NCBI RefSeq assembly: GCF_011008905.1
Contig: NZ_JAAIVI010000017.1
Coordinates: forward strand, 1,341,750-1,405,749
Reading direction: 5' to 3'
DNA: 64,000 nucleotides
DNA from: Wenzhouxiangella sp. XN201
GTDB lineage: Bacteria; Pseudomonadota; Gammaproteobacteria; Xanthomonadales; Wenzhouxiangellaceae
In this document: one piece after another, positions 8,115-63,479 of the stretch
Layout: each line of letters begins with the position of its first letter
Numbering within the stretch: position 1 is the first letter of the stretch
Notes under the pieces: model-generated
The model's input: only the letters and a program-made list of their open reading frames with translations
Databases searched by the model: none
What the model was told of the DNA's origin: nothing
Position numbers and translations under genes: made by a program

Positions 8115-9544
8115 GGCTGATCTCCCGATTTATCCTCGCTCATGGCGTGGTTGTCGCCGTGGGCGGAGTGGTCCATGGTTTCGCCCGATTCCGGTTCCGA
8201 TTCCGATTCCGATTCGGTGCCGTGGTCCATGTCCTGATCCGTTTCATGGTCCATCGAGTGGTTCATGTCGTGGTCCATCTCGTGGTCCATGTCCTGATCC
8301 ATGTCGTCGTCTGAAGCGCTCTTGTCATCGAGCAAGCGCATCAGGCTGGCGTCTGCGCTGGCCTCCGAGTCGATCAGGAACTGACTGGACACCACGATCT
8401 GCTCGCCTTCCTCGAGTCCGGCGGTAATCTCCGTGAACCCGCCCGATTCGAGGCCGGTGGCCACTTCCGCAGGCCGGAATCGACCTTCTCCCAGCGCCAG
8501 TATCACGCGCTCTCCCTGGCCGGTTCGGATGATGGACTGGGTGGGTACGACGAGGGCCTCGGCATGCGGGTCGGCCGCGATCGAAACGCGGGCATACATG
8601 TTGGGCTTGAGCTTCAGATCCGGATTGTCGAATACCAGGCGCACACGCCCGGTGCGTGTTTCCGATCGAATGGTCGGATAGACAAAATCGATCTCGCCGT
8701 GCCATTCGCGGCCGGCTTCTGCCCAGGGAAGCCGCATTGTGGCTCGCTGACCCGGTTCGGCCCAGTTGATCTGGCCCTCGAAAAGATCGGCTTCCACCCA
8801 GACCCGGGACAGGTCTGCAATGGACATGAGGGTGCCACCCGGCTGGACATACATGCCCTGCCGAACATTGAGTTCGAGCAGGTGGCCGTCTTCGGGCGCG
8901 TGAACCGTGAAGAGCCGGCTCGGCGTTCCACGTTGTCGCAGGCCGCGGACCTGCTCTGCATTCATGCCCAGTGAGGCCAGCCGCGATTGGGATGCCGTGA
9001 CGAGCGTCTGATTGCCCATTCTTACGGCTTGCAGGTATTCTTCCTGCGCGCTGACCAGGGCCGGGGAATAGATCTCGAACAGAGGCTGTCCGGCCGATAC
9101 CTGTTCACCTTCCGTTTCCACATGCAGTACTTCGATCCAGCCTTCGGTGCGGACGTGGACGTGGGCAATCTGACCGCCATCGGGCGTCACCAGGCCCACG
9201 GCGTCGATGTCGCGCGCCAGGTCCCGACGCTGGACGGGCGAGACCTTGACGCCGATGTTGTTGATTACCGTCGGATTGATCCGGATCGACGGTTGACCCT
9301 GGTTGCCCTCCTGACCGGCCTCGTCGGCATAGACCGGCACGAGATCCATGCCCATGGGCGATTTGCCGGGCTCGTCGCGCCGGTAGTTCGGGTCCATGGG
9401 GGCAACCCAGTAGAGAATTTCGCGCTCGGCCTCGCCCGGCTGATCCTGACTTCCCGAGTCGGATCCCCCGAAGGCCCACCAGGCCGCAAGAAAGCCGACG
9501 GCGACGGCTGTAAGCGCTATAACCACGACTTGCCACTTGTTCAC
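8111..9544 (-). CDS. cusB: CusB-family periplasmic adaptor with Met/His/Asp-rich C-terminal tail
   Basis: 477 residues. The start is a GTG at 9544 whose last bases overlap the stop of the channel gene (GTGA), preceded by GGGAGAAG. Order of parts: N-terminal membrane helix (about 5-23); a heavy-metal-binding motif with WVAPMDP and GKSPMGMDLVPVY; the barrel-sandwich and alpha-hairpin (VHVRTEGWIEVLHV, AQEEYLQAV); beta-barrel and membrane-proximal domain (VVPTQSIIRTG). The final 65 residues are a repetitive Asp/Met/His run (repeated MDH and MDQ units) not found in E. coli CusB. The protein bridges CusA and the outer-membrane channel and can deliver metal to the pump. The tail probably buffers Cu/Ag. 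Confidence 0.92.
   Translation of the reverse strand: MNKWQVVVIALTAVAVGFLAAWWAFGGSDSGSQDQPGEAEREILYWVAPMDPNYRRDEPGKSPMGMDLVPVYADEAGQEGNQGQPSIRINPTVINNIGVKVSPVQRRDLARDIDAVGLVTPDGGQIAHVHVRTEGWIEVLHVETEGEQVSAGQPLFEIYSPALVSAQEEYLQAVRMGNQTLVTASQSRLASLGMNAEQVRGLRQRGTPSRLFTVHAPEDGHLLELNVRQGMYVQPGGTLMSIADLSRVWVEADLFEGQINWAEPGQRATMRLPWAEAGREWHGEIDFVYPTIRSETRTGRVRLVFDNPDLKLKPNMYARVSIAADPHAEALVVPTQSIIRTGQGERVILALGEGRFRPAEVATGLESGGFTEITAGLEEGEQIVVSSQFLIDSEASADASLMRLLDDKSASDDDMDQDMDHEMDHDMNHSMDHETDQDMDHGTESESESEPESGETMDHSAHGDNHAMSEDKSGDQP
8160..8320 (-). repeat. Imperfect tandem repeat encoding the Met/His/Asp tail of the adaptor
   Basis: On the + strand, short units such as TGGTCCAT recur at irregular 9-30 bp intervals, encoding repeated MDH/MDQ tripeptides on the minus strand. 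A second run of GATTCC units encodes alternating Ser/Glu. The pattern suggests growth by slippage within an in-frame metal-binding tail. Confidence 0.75.
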
Positions 9545-50458: not shown

Positions 50459-50543
50459 AACCGCAGATTTCGCAGATTGACGCAGATTTGGAAAAGACCA
50501 TTTTTCTGTTGGAAATCTGCGCGAATCTGCGTAATCTGCGGTT
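50459..50543. repeat. Intergenic hairpin of CGCAGATT units
   Basis: Left arm AACCGCAGATT (50459-50469) pairs exactly with AATCTGCGGTT (50533-50543). Inside, CGCAGATT is repeated three times on the left and its complement three times on the right. No gene in this 125-bp gap. A different repeat family from the CACGGAA one; could terminate both convergent genes. Confidence 0.85.
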
Positions 50544-57334: not shown

Positions 57335-57418
57335 TAAGCGGCAGCGAGAGATTGCTAGAGTATGTGATATCGGGTGTTTTAACCCGCAAGCTGATGCATG
57401 ATTCGAGGAGATGGAGCG

Positions 57419-57859
57419 ATGACTGATCCGATCAAGGAAATCCTGGTGCCGGTCGACGGTTCGGAGAACGCCAACCGGGCCGTGCGGTTCGCCGCTACCA
57501 TGGCCGAGCGCCTGGATGTACCGATGCGCCTGTTCTATGTGTTTCCTGCGGCTTCGGTCGAGATCATCGGCATGGCCGGCATGTCACGCGACGATATCGA
57601 TCAGGCTGCCCAGACCGCGGCGCAGCGTGCCTTCGATGCCACCCGGGAGGCACTTGGTGATGCCGCTCCCAAGGCACTCGACGAAGACACCTCGATCGGC
57701 GATCCGGCGGAGGAGATCGTACGCTTCACCGAGGATGATCCCGGCGTGATGGTCATCATGGGTCGCCGCGGCCTGTCGCGCATGAAGTCTCTGGTGCTGG
57801 GCAGTGTCAGCGACAAGGTCAGCCGCCACGCCAAGAGTCCCGTCACGATCATTACCTAA
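57419..57859 (+). CDS. Universal stress protein (UspA family)
   Basis: 146 residues from ATG 57419 (GAGGAG upstream). N-terminal ILVPVDGSENANRAVRFA and C-terminal ATP-binding motif GRRGLSRMKSLVLGSVSDKV, which fits G-x2-G-x9-G(S/T). Single Usp domain, soluble, ATP-binding type. Often induced by oxygen limitation or stationary phase. Its stop codon overlaps the convergent dnaE2 stop by 4 bp. Confidence 0.94.
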   Translation: MTDPIKEILVPVDGSENANRAVRFAATMAERLDVPMRLFYVFPAASVEIIGMAGMSRDDIDQAAQTAAQRAFDATREALGDAAPKALDEDTSIGDPAEEIVRFTEDDPGVMVIMGRRGLSRMKSLVLGSVSDKVSRHAKSPVTIIT

Positions 57860-60800
57860 CAAAAATCCCGCGAGCGACTGTCGAGTTCGGCCAGCCAGTC
57901 ATCGAGGCAGTCGATACGTTCCGCCACCAGGTGGCACACGCCCTCGACGTTCTGCAGCTTGCCGTGCACGCGCAGGATGCGGCCACCGAGCACCTCGCGG
58001 CGATAGCGTTCGAGCAGCTTCGGCCAGACCACCACGTTGATGATCCCGGTCTCGTCCTCCAGCGACAGGAAGACCACACCCGAGGCCGTGCCCGGGCGCT
58101 GGCGGTGCGTGACCAGGCCGGCCGCCGACAGGCGGCGTCCGTCGGCCTGTTGCGGTAATTCATTGGCCCGAAGGGTCTGCCGTCCCAGCCGGCGGCGCAG
58201 CAGTTTCAGCGGATGCCGTTCCAGGCTGAGCCCCAGGCTGGCATAGTCATCGATCAACTCGCTGCGGGCATCGGGCAGGGTGAGTTGCACCGGTTTGTCG
58301 TGGATTTCGGTACCGGCCAGCAGATCCCCCTGGCGTCGCGCCCCCAGCGCGGCCCAGCGGGCACGGTGCCGGTGCCCGGCCAGCCCCTTGAGCGCGCCGG
58401 CATCGGCGAGTTTTCGCAAAGCGGCCCGGTCCAGCCCGGCCCGCTCGGTCAGCTCGTCGACATCGCGGAAGGGAGATTCCGATCGCGCATGCGCGATCCG
58501 TTCGGCGACGTCTTCGCGAAATCCCTTGATCATGCGAAAACCCAACCGGACCGCCGGTTGGGTTGTTTGCTGGTTTGCTGGTTTGCTGGTTGGCTGGTTT
58601 TGGTCATTCGAACATTCGAATTTCGAATTTGTTTGTGATTTGGTATTTGGTGCTTGGTGCTTTCCTGTAAGGGTGCAATCCCAGTCGCTATAGCGCACAT
58701 CCACCGGCAACACCCGCACGCCATGGCGTTTCACGTCGTTGATGATCTGCGCCGGCGCATAGAAGCCCATCGGCTGGCTGTTGAGCAATGCGCAGGCAAA
58801 GGCGGCCGGGTGGTGGCATTTGAGCCAGGACGAGACGTAGGTCAGCAGGGCGAAGCTGGCCGCATGCGATTCGGGAAAGCCGTATTCACCGAAACCACAG
58901 ATCTGCCGGTAGATGCGTTCGGCGAATTCGTCGGAGTAGCCGCGTTCGCCCATGCCCTCGAGCAGCCGTTCGCGAAATGGCTCCAGCCCGCCGCGCCGAC
59001 GCCAGGCCGCCATCGCCCGGCGGAGCTGGTCGGCTTCGCCGGCGCTGAAGCCGGCCGCGACCATGGCGATCTGCATCACCTGTTCCTGGAAGATCGGCAC
59101 GCCCAGGGTGCGTTCAAGCACGGTTTTCAGTTCCGGGCTGGGGTAGGCCACGGCATCAGGGTTCCGCCGACGTTCGAGATAAGGGTGGACCATATCGCCC
59201 TGGATCGGACCGGGCCGCACGATCGCCACCTCGATGACCAGGTCGTAGAAACAGCGCGGCTTGAGTCGCGGCAGCATCGCCATCTGCGCCCGCGACTCGA
59301 CCTGGAAGACCCCCACCGCATCGCCGCGGCAGAGCATGTCGTAGGTTTGGGCGTCTTCACGGGGAATGGCTGCCAGCGTCAGCTTGCGCGGCTTCGTTGG
59401 TTCCTCGGGTGGTTCTTTCGTTCGCTGGTTGGCTGGTTCGCTGGTTGGCTGGTTTTGAACATTCGAATTTCGGTCATTCGAATTTGTTTGTAATTTGGTG
59501 CTTGGAATTTGGTGCTTGCTGTTCACCAGCTCCATTGCTTTCCGGATCACCGTCAACATCCCCAGCGCCAGGCAGTCGACCTTGAGCAGGCCGAGCGTTT
59601 CGAGGTCGTCCTTGTCCCACTGGATGATGGTGCGATCGGCCATGGCGGCGTTTTCCACCGGCACCAGTTCGTACAGCGGTGTATCCGATATGACCATGCC
59701 GCCGACATGCTGGGAGAGATGGCGCGGAAAGCCGATCAGGCGGTCGGTCAGTTCGAGCAAGTGTTTCGTCAGCGCCGCGTCCGGATCGAGGCCGTTTTCA
59801 CGCAGCCGCTCGGGCCAGACTTCGGGTTGGTCCCACCAGGCCAGCGAGGCGGTCAGGCGGTTGATGCGTTCGGGCTCGAAGCCCAGCGCGCGGCCGACAT
59901 CCTGCATGGCGCTGCGCGGGCGGTAGCAGATTACCGTCGCGGCCAGGGCGGCGCGTTCGCGGCCGTATTTTTCGTAAACGTACTGCAGCACTTCTTCGCG
60001 TCGCTCGTGCTCGAAGTCGACGTCGATGTCCGGTGGCTCGTTGCGCTCCTTCGACAAAAAGCGCTCGAACAGCAGCTGCTGTTTCGACGGATCGACCTCG
60101 GTCACGCCCAGGCAGTAGCACACCGCCGAGTTGGCCGCCGAGCCGCGGCCCTGGCAGAGAATGCCGCGCGAGCGGGCGAAGACCACCAGGTCATGCACGG
60201 TCAGGAAGAAGGCTTCCACGCCCATGGCCTCGATCAGGGCCAGTTCGCGCGAGAGCAGGGCCTGAACCGTCTCCGGAACGGTCTTGCCGTAGCGTTTCCG
60301 GGCGCCTTCCAGGGTGAGCTGGCGCAAATGCTGGATGGGGCTGAGCGGCTGCGGCACCAGCTCGCGCGGATAGCGGTAGTTCAGTTCGTCGAGCGAGAAA
60401 GCGCAGCGTTCAGCCAGTCTCAGGGTTTCGCTCAGCCATTCGCCCGGATACAGCTTCGCCAGGACTTCGCGGCCGCGCAGATGCTGCTCGCCGCTGGCGG
60501 CCAGGGCCAGGCCGCACTCGGCCACCGGCCGCCCCATGCGCAGGGCCGTGAACACATCCAGCAGCGGCTTGTCCTCACGCACTGCCAGGCGTACGTCGCC
60601 GCAGGCCAGACGCGGGATGCCGTGACGCTCGCCCAGCCGCTCGAGTTCGCGCAACCATTCACGCTCGCCGGGGACGAGCAGGCGGCTCGCGCCCAGCCAC
60701 AGGCGATTGCCGAAACGCTGTTTGAGCCAGGCGGCAAGAGTTTCGTTGGCTGGTTCGCTGGTTGGCTGGTTCGCTCGTTCTGTCGTCCCGGAAATCGCGA

Positions 60801-61314
60801 AGCGGTTATCCGGGATCTCGCACCTGGTGGCATCTCTCATCCATGCCGTGCCGCCGTCGAACGTGCGAGGTCCCGGCTCTTCGGCCGGGACGACAGGATT
60901 TGGGGAGCTCTTCCCCGTTTGTCGGGCCGGTTTCCAGATCACCAGCACGTTCTCGAGGCCCTCGTCCAGGTCTGTGACCTCGAGCCGGTACTCACCCTTG
61001 CCGGCACGTCGCCGGGCGCGGGTAATCAGGCGGCAGATCTGTGCATAGGCGGCCCGGTCGGGCGCCAGCAACACCAGGTGGAGGCTGTCAAGATGGAACT
61101 CGCTGCCGATGATCAGATGAACCCCGTGTTCCCGCACCGCCTCGTGGGCGCGTACCACCCCGGCCATCGAGCACTCGTCGGTGATCGCCAGGGCCGCATA
61201 GCCGCGCTCGGCGGCACGCCGGACCAGGGCTTGTGGCTGCGCGGCCGAGCGCCGGAAGCTGAAGGCACTCAGCGCATGCAGTTCGGCGTATCCGGGTGGG
61301 GGCGAGGCGGGCAT
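57856..61314 (-). CDS. dnaE2: Error-prone DNA polymerase DnaE2 (ImuC) with three repeat-derived inserts
   Basis: 1152 residues; DnaE2 is normally near 1030. PHP domain ([33 protein letters not shown]), palm with catalytic acids in [20 protein letters not shown], and fingers with [17 protein letters not shown], then an OB fold near the C-terminus. Three segments without counterpart in ordinary DnaE2 lie at residues about 135-190, 599-638 and 883-919; two or more contain [10 protein letters not shown]-like runs encoded by dispersed repeat DNA. The frame is intact throughout and flanking motifs are unbroken, so the enzyme may be active. It works with ImuA and ImuB in SOS mutagenesis; GGAG precedes the ATG. 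Confidence 0.95.
   Translation of the reverse strand: [1152 protein letters not shown]
58561..58665. repeat. Dispersed repeat inside dnaE2, copy 1
   Basis: 8-bp units of the type GGTTTGCT/GGTTGGCT (58561-58601) are followed by an AT-rich part with ATTCGAA, TTCGAATTTGTTTGT and TTGGTGCTTGG. Base composition is far lower in GC than the gene around it. It encodes residues about 883-919, between the DWDCTL and [10 protein letters not shown] motifs. Confidence 0.85.
59411..59519. repeat. Dispersed repeat inside dnaE2, copy 2
   Basis: Same composite as copy 1: GGTTGGCT/GGTTCGCT units, then ATTCGAA and TTCGAATTTGTTTGT and TTGGTGCTTGG. It encodes residues about 599-638, just before the conserved [15 protein letters not shown]. 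Confidence 0.85.
60745..60780. repeat. Dispersed 8-bp repeat inside dnaE2, copy 3 (short)
   Basis: GTTGGCTG/GTTCGCTG units only; the AT-rich half is absent. Directly followed by a REP-like palindrome pair. Encodes [10 protein letters not shown] in the third insert. Confidence 0.8.
60781..60895. repeat. REP-like palindrome pair inside dnaE2
   Basis: TGTCGTCCCGG (60781-60791) is the exact complement of CCGGGACGACA (60885-60895), and inner segments GGGATCTCGCAC and GTGCGAGGTCCC pair with one mismatch. Each half also folds alone through CCCGG/CCGGG. This is the layout of two inverted REP units (a BIME), normally intergenic, here within a coding region. Confidence 0.8.
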
Positions 61315-61347
61315 GACGGACTCCGATGATTCGCGGATTTTGAGAAA

Positions 61348-61363
61348 CTATAAATTTATATAG
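61348..61363. promoter_or_regulatory. LexA-like dyad between dnaE2 and imuA
   Basis: CTAT-N8-ATAG (AT-rich centre), flanked by A and T to give ACTATA-N6-TATAGT. Length and spacing equal the gammaproteobacterial SOS box CTGT-N8-ACAG, with one substitution in each half. It lies midway between the divergent dnaE2 and imuA starts, where one operator could control both. dnaE2 and imuAB are LexA-controlled in other bacteria. Confidence 0.5.
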
Positions 61364-61393
61364 TATCCTGATCCACCCATACGGAGTCTTTCA

Positions 61394-62053
61394 ATGTGGG
61401 CTCAGGTCCAGCTCGAAAAGCTGCTCGATCAACGCTCCGATCTCTGGCGGGGACGGGCACGCAGGTCCTTCCCGGCTGTGTCCACCGGTCTGGACTGGCT
61501 CGACCGCGGGCTGCCCGGCGGTTGGCCGCTGGGCCGGCTGACCGAGTTTCTGCCGCGCGTGAGCGGCTGCGGCGAACTGGGCCTGCTGCTGCCGCTGCTG
61601 GCCCGCTGCACACAGCGGGAACAGCCGGTGGTGCTGGCCGGGCCGATGCTGGTGCCCGGGCCACAGGCCCTGATCAAGGCGGGTGTGGTGCTCGAGCACC
61701 TGGTGGTGGTGCGCGAGGTCCGTGAGGTGTTGTGGGCGGCCGAGCAGTGCCTGAAAAGCGGCTTGTGCGGTAGCGTGGTGGTCTGGCCGCCGGCCGGCCG
61801 GGTGGGGGAGCGGGTCGTGCGTCGCCTGCAACTGGCTTCCGAGCAGAGCCCGGGACCGGCTTTCGTGATCTATCGCCCCGGGCAGTCGCCACCGGCGTCG
61901 GTTTCGGCCCTGCGCCTGGGCCTGGGTCCCGGGCCCGAGGTCGAGGTCCTGCGCAGTCCGGCCGGCCTGGTCGAGTCGAGGCGACTGTCCCCGGTGTTTG
62001 AATCCGTCATCGAACTATCGCGCTACCGAGAGCATGTCCGCTCGGCCCGGTGA
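61394..62053 (+). CDS. imuA: ImuA, translesion-synthesis accessory protein (RecA/SulA-like)
   Basis: 219 residues, ATG 61394 with GGAG upstream. RecA-like N-part with FPAVSTGLDWLDRGLPGGWPLGRLTEFL but no full Walker A, as usual for ImuA. It links the ImuB-DnaE2 mutasome, by analogy to other systems. 20 bp overlap with imuB; divergent from dnaE2. Confidence 0.9.
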   Translation: MWAQVQLEKLLDQRSDLWRGRARRSFPAVSTGLDWLDRGLPGGWPLGRLTEFLPRVSGCGELGLLLPLLARCTQREQPVVLAGPMLVPGPQALIKAGVVLEHLVVVREVREVLWAAEQCLKSGLCGSVVVWPPAGRVGERVVRRLQLASEQSPGPAFVIYRPGQSPPASVSALRLGLGPGPEVEVLRSPAGLVESRRLSPVFESVIELSRYREHVRSAR

Positions 62054-63479
62054 ACTGTGGTTGGGGCTGCACTGCCCGCAGTTGCCCCTGCTGGCGGCCT
62101 GGCAGTGTGATCCGGAACCGCCCGGGCTGTACGCCGTGCACGGCTATCGGCGTGGCCGCCACGTGATTCTGCAGGCCAGCACGGCGGCGCAGCGCGCCGG
62201 GGTGGCGCCGGGCCAGCCGCTGAGCACGGCGCTGGCGATCGCGCCGGCGCTTGCCAGCCGGCCGCGCCATTCGCGAGCCGAGCGTGCCTTGATCGAGCAA
62301 CTGGCGCTGGGTGCCTGGCGGGTCAGCAGCCATGTGGTGCAGGCCCCACCCGACAGCGTGGTACTGGAAATTGCCGGTAGCCGGCGCCTCTACGGCGGCC
62401 TGCGGCCGCTGGTCGAAACCCTCTGCGCACAGCTTGAACACGAGGGTCTGCCGGTGCGGGTCGGTTCGGCGCCGGTGGCGGCCACGGCCCGGCTGTTTGC
62501 CCGTCACGGTCTGCATGCCGCCAGCCCGGGCACCATGCGCGAGAAACTGGCGGACCTGTCCCTGGACGCACTGGCCCTGGATGAGGAACAGGCACATGCC
62601 CTGGCGGGTTGCGGCCTGAAATCCGTGGCCGATCTGCTGCGCTTGCCGAAGCCTGAGCGGGCGCGGCGCTTCGGGTCGGAGCTGAACCGGCGCCTGGCCT
62701 GCCTGGAAGGGCGATCACCCACGCCGCTGGCCGCCTGGCAGCCGCCGGAGACATTCCGGCTGCGGCTGGAACTGCCGGCGGCCAGCAGCGACAGTTCGGC
62801 CCTGTTGTTCGTGCTGCGCCGCGCCGTGGCCCGCATGGCGCACTGGCTGGACGTTCGCGATCAGGCGCTCACACGCCTGCATGTTGCACTCAGGCGTGAG
62901 GATGGCGGCGGCAGCGTGCCGCTTCAGGTGGGCTTGTCGCGTCCGGGTATGGATCAGGCTCGCTTGCTGGAACTGCTCGCCCTCAAGCTCGAGAAACTCG
63001 AGCTGCCGGGGGCGGTGGAAGCCGTCGAACTGCATGCCGAGAGTACCGATGAGCACCGCCCGCCGCAGGCCGACCTGTGGAGCGGCAACAACCGTGGCGA
63101 TGCCTGGCCGGCGCTGCTGGATCGATTGCAGGCGCGCGTGGGTGAGGGCGGTCTGGCTGGTCTGGCCGTGCGGCCCGATCATCGTCCCGAAAGAGCCTGG
63201 CGCTGGGTCGCGCCGGGAACCCCGGTGCGCTGCGAGGACGAGCGGCCGCGGCCAACCTGGCTCTTGCCCGAGCCGCGCTCCTGCCGGCGCGAGCAGCTGT
63301 GCCTGGAAGAGGGGCCGGAACGGATCGAGGCCGGCTGGTGGGACGGCGTGGAATGCCGGCGCGATTACTTCATCGCCCGCGACCGTCAAGGCCGCCGCCT
63401 GTGGGTTTTCCACGAGCACGCCGGCGAGGGCGGCTGGTTCATCCAGGGGGTCTTCGACGACATCGCGTCGACGTCTTGA
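62034..63479 (+). CDS. imuB: ImuB, Y-family polymerase-like mutasome subunit
   Basis: 481 residues from ATG 62034 (MSARPGELWLGLHCPQLPLLA). Y-family fold with finger/palm remnants (LEIAGSRRLYGGLRPLVETL) and a little-finger region. The catalytic acidic triad of DinB is not seen, as in other ImuB proteins, which act as beta-clamp-binding hubs for DnaE2. The stop TGA lies inside the -35 of the following heat-shock promoter. Confidence 0.93.
   Translation: MSARPGELWLGLHCPQLPLLAAWQCDPEPPGLYAVHGYRRGRHVILQASTAAQRAGVAPGQPLSTALAIAPALASRPRHSRAERALIEQLALGAWRVSSHVVQAPPDSVVLEIAGSRRLYGGLRPLVETLCAQLEHEGLPVRVGSAPVAATARLFARHGLHAASPGTMREKLADLSLDALALDEEQAHALAGCGLKSVADLLRLPKPERARRFGSELNRRLACLEGRSPTPLAAWQPPETFRLRLELPAASSDSSALLFVLRRAVARMAHWLDVRDQALTRLHVALRREDGGGSVPLQVGLSRPGMDQARLLELLALKLEKLELPGAVEAVELHAESTDEHRPPQADLWSGNNRGDAWPALLDRLQARVGEGGLAGLAVRPDHRPERAWRWVAPGTPVRCEDERPRPTWLLPEPRSCRREQLCLEEGPERIEAGWWDGVECRRDYFIARDRQGRRLWVFHEHAGEGGWFIQGVFDDIASTS

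Follow-up and report, generated by a model that had tools for sequence, protein, structure and literature searches.

How non-coding-type repeats come to form part of a protein, and why they do so at particular places, is the question raised by an error-prone DNA polymerase gene in a 64,000-nucleotide stretch of the Wenzhouxiangella sp. XN201 genome (contig NZ_JAAIVI010000017.1; the whole stretch is hereafter the window). The gene, dnaE2 (imuC; 57856-61314, minus strand), encodes an intact protein of 1152 amino acids which incorporates three in-frame inserts that are absent from usual DnaE2. The original prediction, made from the sequence of this stretch without reference to the strand, claimed a frame open over 1152 codons, and such a frame is present on the minus strand, with stops in the plus-strand frame of the same interval. 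The gene is identified on the basis of this frame, its match to the NCBIfam error-prone polymerase model NF004225 (1428.5 bits; curated cut-off 939) and four putative catalytic aspartates (D429, D431, D433 and D580), which are invariant across 89 aligned sequences. The aspartates occur in the motifs PDIDVDF (residues 428-434) and KVDCLAL (residues 578-584), and their role is one which we take to be that of their counterparts in Escherichia coli polymerase III (Pol III) alpha. The NF004225 model comprises 1047 positions versus the 1152 residues of the XN201 protein, and the surplus mostly corresponds to the three inserts.

The inserts are found at residues ~134-191 (insert 1 in loop 1; 60742-60915), 600-642 (insert 2 in loop 2; 59389-59517) and 885-920 (insert 3 in loop 3; 58555-58662), all on the minus strand, close to the limits originally proposed (135-190, 599-638 and 883-919), and the suggestion that they entered in frame between conserved blocks of the protein is supported. 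As had also been noticed, all three share an array of 8-bp units (sense strand AACCAGCC and variants; 60743-60780, 59420-59454 and 58556-58600 in inserts 1, 2 and 3, respectively, minus strand). These arrays are short and imperfect, with units of 7-8 bp. An AT-rich part had been described in two inserts, and this heptamer/AT-rich half-element (AAGCACC, ATTCGAA / TTCGAATTTGTTTGT) is confined to inserts 2 and 3, while the description of insert 1 needs correction, as it combines two kinds of element, the octamer array and a CCCGG palindromic element (60780-60896, no strand assigned) bearing perfect 12-bp arms at 60780-60791 and 60885-60896. In a stem test with a minimum of 12 bp insert 1 passes at 16 bp, while inserts 2 and 3 fail at 10 and 8 bp, respectively, and are not palindromic. 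At third codon positions, the inserts have a guanine plus cytosine fraction of 0.53 and the remainder of the gene one of 0.82.

The octamer repeat is dispersed in the host genome. Within the window, seventeen copies of GGTTGGCTGGTT could be distinguished with up to two mismatches (4.1 expected; 0/100 shuffles reach seventeen), thirteen of which are located in dnaE2. The 3.13 Mb XN201 genome (G000) contains 82 exact matches to this 12-mer (40 forward and 42 reverse) and none to the reversed pattern that served as control; the pattern ARGCACCAARGCACCAA had the wrong period and was excluded from the results. Using a codon-score rule of our own, trained on eleven window frames taken as genes, 33 of the 37 clusters into which the 82 matches group were scored as not inside a gene, with three in dnaE2 and one in a nucleotide-sugar dehydrogenase gene, which bears out the earlier view of a dispersed repeat of non-coding type with copies elsewhere in the genome. 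Inverted arms are present in some intergenic copies, and in several of them two facing octamer arms surround a GCGGGGCGGCTTCGCCGCG-like core. Counterparts of the individual inserts also occur elsewhere in the genome: 63 nt of insert 2 are 95 % identical to a copy at C17:59443 (L105), 66 nt of insert 3 are 86 % identical to a copy at C17:95936 (L109), and 158 nt and 160 nt of insert 1 are 78 % and 74 % identical to L084 and L085, respectively, with the composite of insert 1 recurring at sites scored as intergenic. The matches of 95, 86 and 78 % indicate that the elements were copied in, and did not arise just by local slippage. A special openness of the elements was considered and rejected, with 1.7-2.3 of the six frames open versus 3.1 in windows drawn at random from these loci, which are partly coding. 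The dehydrogenase gene is TviB-like (L078:1235-2608, minus strand; C17, ~931.5 kb) and carries its octamer array in an open frame.

The original prediction envisaged one repeat entering dnaE2 three times. Comparison across the genus replaces this with a broader picture, in which the three loops stay the same and the repeat families that fill them differ. DnaE2 or a paralogue was found in 42 of the 43 genomes of the family that were searched, and the fillings of the three sites differ among 31 aligned sequences. These include 8-bp arrays with AT-rich halves, CCACGGAAG hairpins, CAAGGAA hairpins, and GGGAGAC, AAAGGTG, GGGACCA, GGTTCGG and other fillings; many form strong hairpins, and some are composites of two or three element types within one loop. 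When a loop is counted as repeat-bearing if its tandem run or stem measures at least 12 and also lies above the 99th percentile obtained in 100 codon shuffles, loop 1 is repeat-bearing in 5/24, loop 2 in 20/25 and loop 3 in 15/22 species of the genus, with corresponding values of 0/5, 0/5 and 1/6 in the other genera of the family. XN201 and G017 are sisters in the tree (support 100/99) and carry different families at loop 2, with G017 sharing its family with the more distant G039, which implies at least two family switches within the clade, unless recombination carried them. Loop 2 of G037 passes the 99th-percentile loop test and fails a stricter whole-gene run test, while the DnaE2 of G035 has one run outside the three loops, probably by chance. 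Full or partial elements are also present just past the dnaE2 stop in G017 (C26:143969-149951), G035 (C137:6719) and G039 (C209:5213), and in G017 also beside imuB, so that the neighbourhood of the gene is repeat-rich too.

A subset of the families seen in the inserts was searched for in 30 genomes each, and these families, with G035 as the one exception, have copies at other places in the genomes that host them. The AT-rich part is matched in five genomes, CAAGG in nine, CACGG in eight, AGACGG in nine (216 matches in G029 alone) and CAGGG in eleven. The 106 CAGGG matches in G018 must be read against 99 for the reversed control, which about equals the pattern in both G018 and G023 because the unit resembles its own reversal. 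Classification of 246 sites of six patterns, among which the AGACGG and CAGGG sites are only part of the matches, placed 192 outside and 27 inside genes, with 27 too near an end (192/219 classified sites outside). Of the 27 in-gene sites, 21 belong to dnaE2 (18 loops in eleven species) and three to icmF. The remaining three are a site in an efflux gene of the CusA/CzcA type, the site in the sugar dehydrogenase gene and a chance 12-mer in a PF01808 gene (L433), which was counted as false. As the six patterns were taken from dnaE2 inserts, the dnaE2 share is inflated by design, and the informative results are the other sites and a pattern-free scan. The efflux gene, of the CusA/CzcA RND type (L227:1-2034, minus strand, G029), has a frame that is open across its array of AGACGG heptamers.

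The pattern-free scan covered 264 kb of XN201 and 200 kb of G017 (464 kb) and accepted any run of 7- or 8-bp period. It flagged 1/212 and 1/154 predicted genes, respectively, this being dnaE2 each time (codon-shuffle expectation for gene runs 0.00), while three runs were located in the ~50 kb of intergenic DNA. When these 464 kb were scanned for inverted repeats, the search identified seventeen stems of at least 18, two of them within genes, namely dnaE2 of G017 and a 674-residue gene adjoining dnaE2 in XN201, with the XN201 dnaE2 itself unflagged. Three internal length changes of at least ten residues were found among 61 orthologue pairs (24,794 residues) and, by eye, only that of dnaE2 is made of these repeats.

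When the in-gene repeat sites other than those in dnaE2 were followed, a second host was reached in IcmF, an enzyme unrelated to DnaE2 in which a B12-binding domain is fused with a GTPase and a mutase, and which is encoded in 28/30 genomes. The notion of dnaE2 as nearly the sole host gene was dropped, as three of the six other in-gene sites are in icmF. In the whole-gene run test, runs were observed in DnaE2 of 19/25 species (38 runs; shuffle expectation 0.15) and in IcmF of 18/24 species (44 runs; shuffle expectation 0.00; four fragmentary proteins left out), while the replicative paralogue DnaE1 has none in the 20 species in which it was tested (shuffle expectation 0.05). IcmF is thus as heavily colonised as DnaE2, which contradicts the idea of a special place for a translesion polymerase and argues against explanations tied to mutagenesis. 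By XN201 numbering, 39 of the 44 IcmF runs are located at residues 175-199, 425-474 and 525-574, four at 200-249 and one, that of G035, near the start of the frame. The heptamer families vary between species, and across the genus three to four sites of the gene hold 7-bp arrays that are specific to their lineage (L451, L442-L471). In the XN201 icmF (L451; C22:128491-131523), the array near residue 181 consists of GGGACTC and that near residue 224 of GAGTCCC, the two forming inverted arms that flank a short segment. The IcmF sites found first, in three scanned proteins, fall outside the listed domain stretches. Matches to ImuB were obtained in 26 genomes; in 25 of them the match is one unbroken segment (six partial), and in G039 it is split over two contigs. 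The absence of inserts from ImuB is read from these unbroken alignments, and that from DnaE1 from the run test.

A structural model of the XN201 DnaE2 was built from 89 sequences, replacing a poor one from 25 sequences (mean predicted local distance difference test score, pLDDT, of 62.9). It has a mean pLDDT of 85.2 and a predicted template modelling score of 0.85, and its top structural matches are bacterial Pol III alpha. Values of pLDDT below 50 are restricted to residues 136-185, 606-634 and 889-912, which lie within the three inserts, and to residues 701-704 and the C-terminus. The inserts, for which modelling had been proposed with surface loops in mind, are therefore predicted to be disordered loops, whereas the rest of the protein is modelled with confidence as a Pol III alpha-type fold. 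Mapped onto E. coli alpha, the loops lie between residues 108 and 154 (loop 1), 575 and 583 (loop 2) and 817 and 833 (loop 3). Loop 2 sits between two Pfam matches and loop 3 inside an HHH_6 match (865-984); the proposal that all loops lie at domain boundaries was withdrawn, as it holds just for DnaE2 loop 2.

The inserts of the genus are absent from the distant DnaE2 examined (80 further sequences, among which L232 belongs to the same family), so that conservation of the same segments across distant DnaE2 did not appear. Loop 2 comprises nine residues in 72/80 of these proteins, while five have a loop 3 of at least 40 residues. Loop 3 in a Pirellulales DnaE2 consists of a 141-nt hairpin (-78.8 kcal/mol), and the 8 Mb genome to which this hairpin belongs contains further related copies (22 matches, the hairpin itself among them and several of them overlapping). 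In a Thiobacillus DnaE2, loop 3 is a 294-nt hairpin-rich insert (-155.2 kcal/mol). Long loops without strong hairpins occur in Granulosicoccus (loop 3, 54 aa; L267:3501-6851) and Shewanella carassii (loop 1, 46 aa; L304:3501-6713).

The explanation that we consider probable is one of serial colonisation, in which short repeats proliferate and settle in the few loops that permit them. Elements with a 7- or 8-bp period, often with inverted arms, would multiply mainly between genes in this genus, each lineage amplifying its own sequence families, and copies would reach genes as well, perhaps through transposition-like copying, recombination or template switching. Nearly all in-gene copies would presumably be lost through breaking the protein, while in-frame copies landing in flexible loops would be tolerated. 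DnaE2, with three loops, and IcmF, with three to four, would be large proteins that accept elements, and their loops may thus be colonised, overwritten and recolonised by the current family of the genome. The encoded peptide is presumably translated and would need no function of its own, surviving through tolerance and not through benefit. The orientation of the octamer arrays points to a sieve on the protein product: the genome holds both orientations in nearly equal numbers, while all six dnaE2 inserts with octamer arrays (a lone AACCAGC in G020 loop 1 was taken as chance and omitted) read AACCAGC in sense, yielding a hydrophilic peptide and never that of the tryptophan-rich other strand (GWFAGWLV).

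Several points weigh against this explanation. As they derive from just three closely related species, the six octamer inserts cannot be treated as independent of one another. In G035 the AT-rich part was found nowhere but within dnaE2 and immediately past it, an exception to the dispersal seen for the searched families. No insertion event, target duplication or within-species empty site was seen in the genomes compared. Tolerance alone also leaves the scarcity of hosts unexplained, for many large proteins have linkers, yet the pattern-free scan of 464 kb found only dnaE2, and DnaE2 is not more relaxed overall. It is conceivable, if doubtful, that a few large proteins, DnaE2 and IcmF so far, are genome-wide acceptors whose loops are preferentially refilled by a mechanism or selection beyond passive tolerance, such as ribosome pausing or a need for long disordered spacers, with loop 3 of DnaE2 behaving likewise in distant phyla.

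Under a second explanation, a loop that already holds a repeat attracts more of them, through insertion into repeats, recombination or gene conversion, so that the bias would lie in the DNA and not in the tolerance of the protein. The composite inserts, the switching of families at loop 2 within one clade and the elements just after dnaE2 in G017, G035 and G039 are all in keeping with such seeding. It nonetheless leaves the first entry unexplained, as well as the use of loop 3 in an unrelated phylum (Pirellulales), and by eye many intergenic sites each carry just one family; we regard this explanation as unlikely. Less likely still is an adaptive origin, in which selection in DnaE2 and IcmF would favour loops that are long and change fast, or hairpins in the mRNA that hold up the ribosome at certain points and aid folding. 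The position of DnaE2 loop 2 and of the three IcmF sites met first relative to the listed domains, the strong hairpins in many inserts and the orientation preference in dnaE2 could be understood in this way. DnaE2 loops 1 and 3, however, are at no clear domain boundary, hairpins are dispensable, as loops 2 and 3 of XN201 have none passing the test, and five species of the genus are without a repeat-bearing loop 2, the loop which most other DnaE2 keep at nine residues.

As neither 7 nor 8 is a multiple of 3, slippage in arrays of such units within a mutagenesis gene might be thought to switch a mutagenic polymerase on and off. Such a contingency locus is very improbable, as no internal stop occurs among the matches listed, shortened frames run to contig ends, the arrays are short and imperfect, and the metabolic enzyme IcmF carries arrays of this kind too; phase variation likewise found no support in the frames of the relatives' DnaE2 or in a literature search. 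Although repeats are classic places of misassembly and the evidence is limited to assemblies, an assembly error or a decaying gene can be set aside almost entirely, since the frame is open in many separate assemblies, including the single-contig G037, the putative catalytic aspartates are invariant, and DnaE2 is as conserved as DnaE1 between XN201 and G017 (85.0 % versus 84.5 % identity; IcmF 87.8 %; median 86.6 % over 61 pairs chosen at 60 % or more), which makes general relaxation or decay unlikely.

Rickettsia palindromic elements (RPE), reportedly described by Ogata and colleagues, had been put forward as a parallel to the inserts. The comparison is apt with regard to in-frame elements: in the portion of the review PMC2229807 drawn on here, RPE are found in 19 reading frames, and as in that account the present repeats lie both between genes and in frame within proteins, where they are apparently tolerated. 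The parallel does not establish membership of the family, since inserts 2 and 3 of XN201 are not palindromic; the likeness is one of description, and the host group differs, as does the concentration of nearly all in-gene sites found in two genes.

A closer precedent is provided by the GTAG/CGTC-tagged repetitive extragenic palindromes (REPs), which, according to the part of PMC3733652 consulted, are small dispersed repeats that occur in frame inside genes of several species, with DnaE2 named among the hosts. The same part of that study describes repair genes as the only tagged genes in many species, proposes a link to mutators, and reports that recB of Xanthomonas campestris and X. oryzae holds different REPs at about the same site. 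The palindrome of insert 1 includes GTCGTCCCGG / CCGGGACGAC, i.e. CGTC, and could by this motif be of the CGTC kind. Unlike those REPs, the repeats described here are mostly arrays with a 7-8-bp period, the Y1_Tnp RAYT transposase (PF01797), present in 5/14 control genomes, was not found in the XN201 genome, replacement within the same loops extends over ~20 species, and the metabolic enzyme IcmF is hit equally. The latter shows that a link to DNA repair and mutators, as set out in the consulted part of PMC3733652, is not sufficient. In-frame repeats in genes, DnaE2 included, are thus already known from that source, while replacement at the same site and the second host gene appear to be new: literature searches by title and the start of the abstract, with the supplement of PMC3733652 outside their scope, returned no report of serial same-loop replacement or of repeats in IcmF. 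Heptameric G-rich repeats of the GGGNATC type in Xanthomonas and Nostoc, which are under-represented in coding regions, resemble those of this genus in having 7-bp units that are dispersed, mostly intergenic, often in inverted pairs and variable among close relatives; they differ in that no serial in-frame colonisation of particular loops is reported in the part of PMC4692102 considered. Repeats that qualify as heptameric simple repeats were found in the relatives, while the main unit of XN201 is 8 bp with 7-bp parts. The cyanobacterial STRR repeats are likewise heptamer arrays, with nested small dispersed repeats, and also occur inside the functional RNA gene rnpB.

The loops of DnaE2 amount to a set of natural replicate experiments in the making of new protein from non-coding repeats, with the same loops filled in many species from different donors and DnaE1 as negative control. 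They illustrate how junk-like intergenic repeats become new stretches of protein, and they render testable the question of whether such insertions are tolerated or useful.

In the window, dnaE2 is divergent from an imuA-like gene (61394-62053, plus strand; NF033429, with 135.7 bits against a cut-off of 150) and an imuB-like gene of the impB/mucB/samB family (61998-63479, plus strand; Pfam IMS), the latter with unbroken matches in relatives and no sign of inserts. This divergent arrangement (57856-63479) is shared with respect to imuB by the close relatives G016, G017, G035 and G039, while dnaE2 and imuB are far apart in G037, G036 and G015. A scan of 57400-61800 for structured RNA returned only one microRNA-family match, far below the gathering score. 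Elsewhere in the window, a unit of 12 bp, a multiple of 3, is repeated in tandem 7.6 times within a listed frame (CGTGGTCCATGT; 8221-8311), and two short neighbouring 9-bp arrays, whose units appear to be opposite to each other (CGCAGATTT / AATCTGCGCG; 50462-50540), possibly represent another hairpin element.

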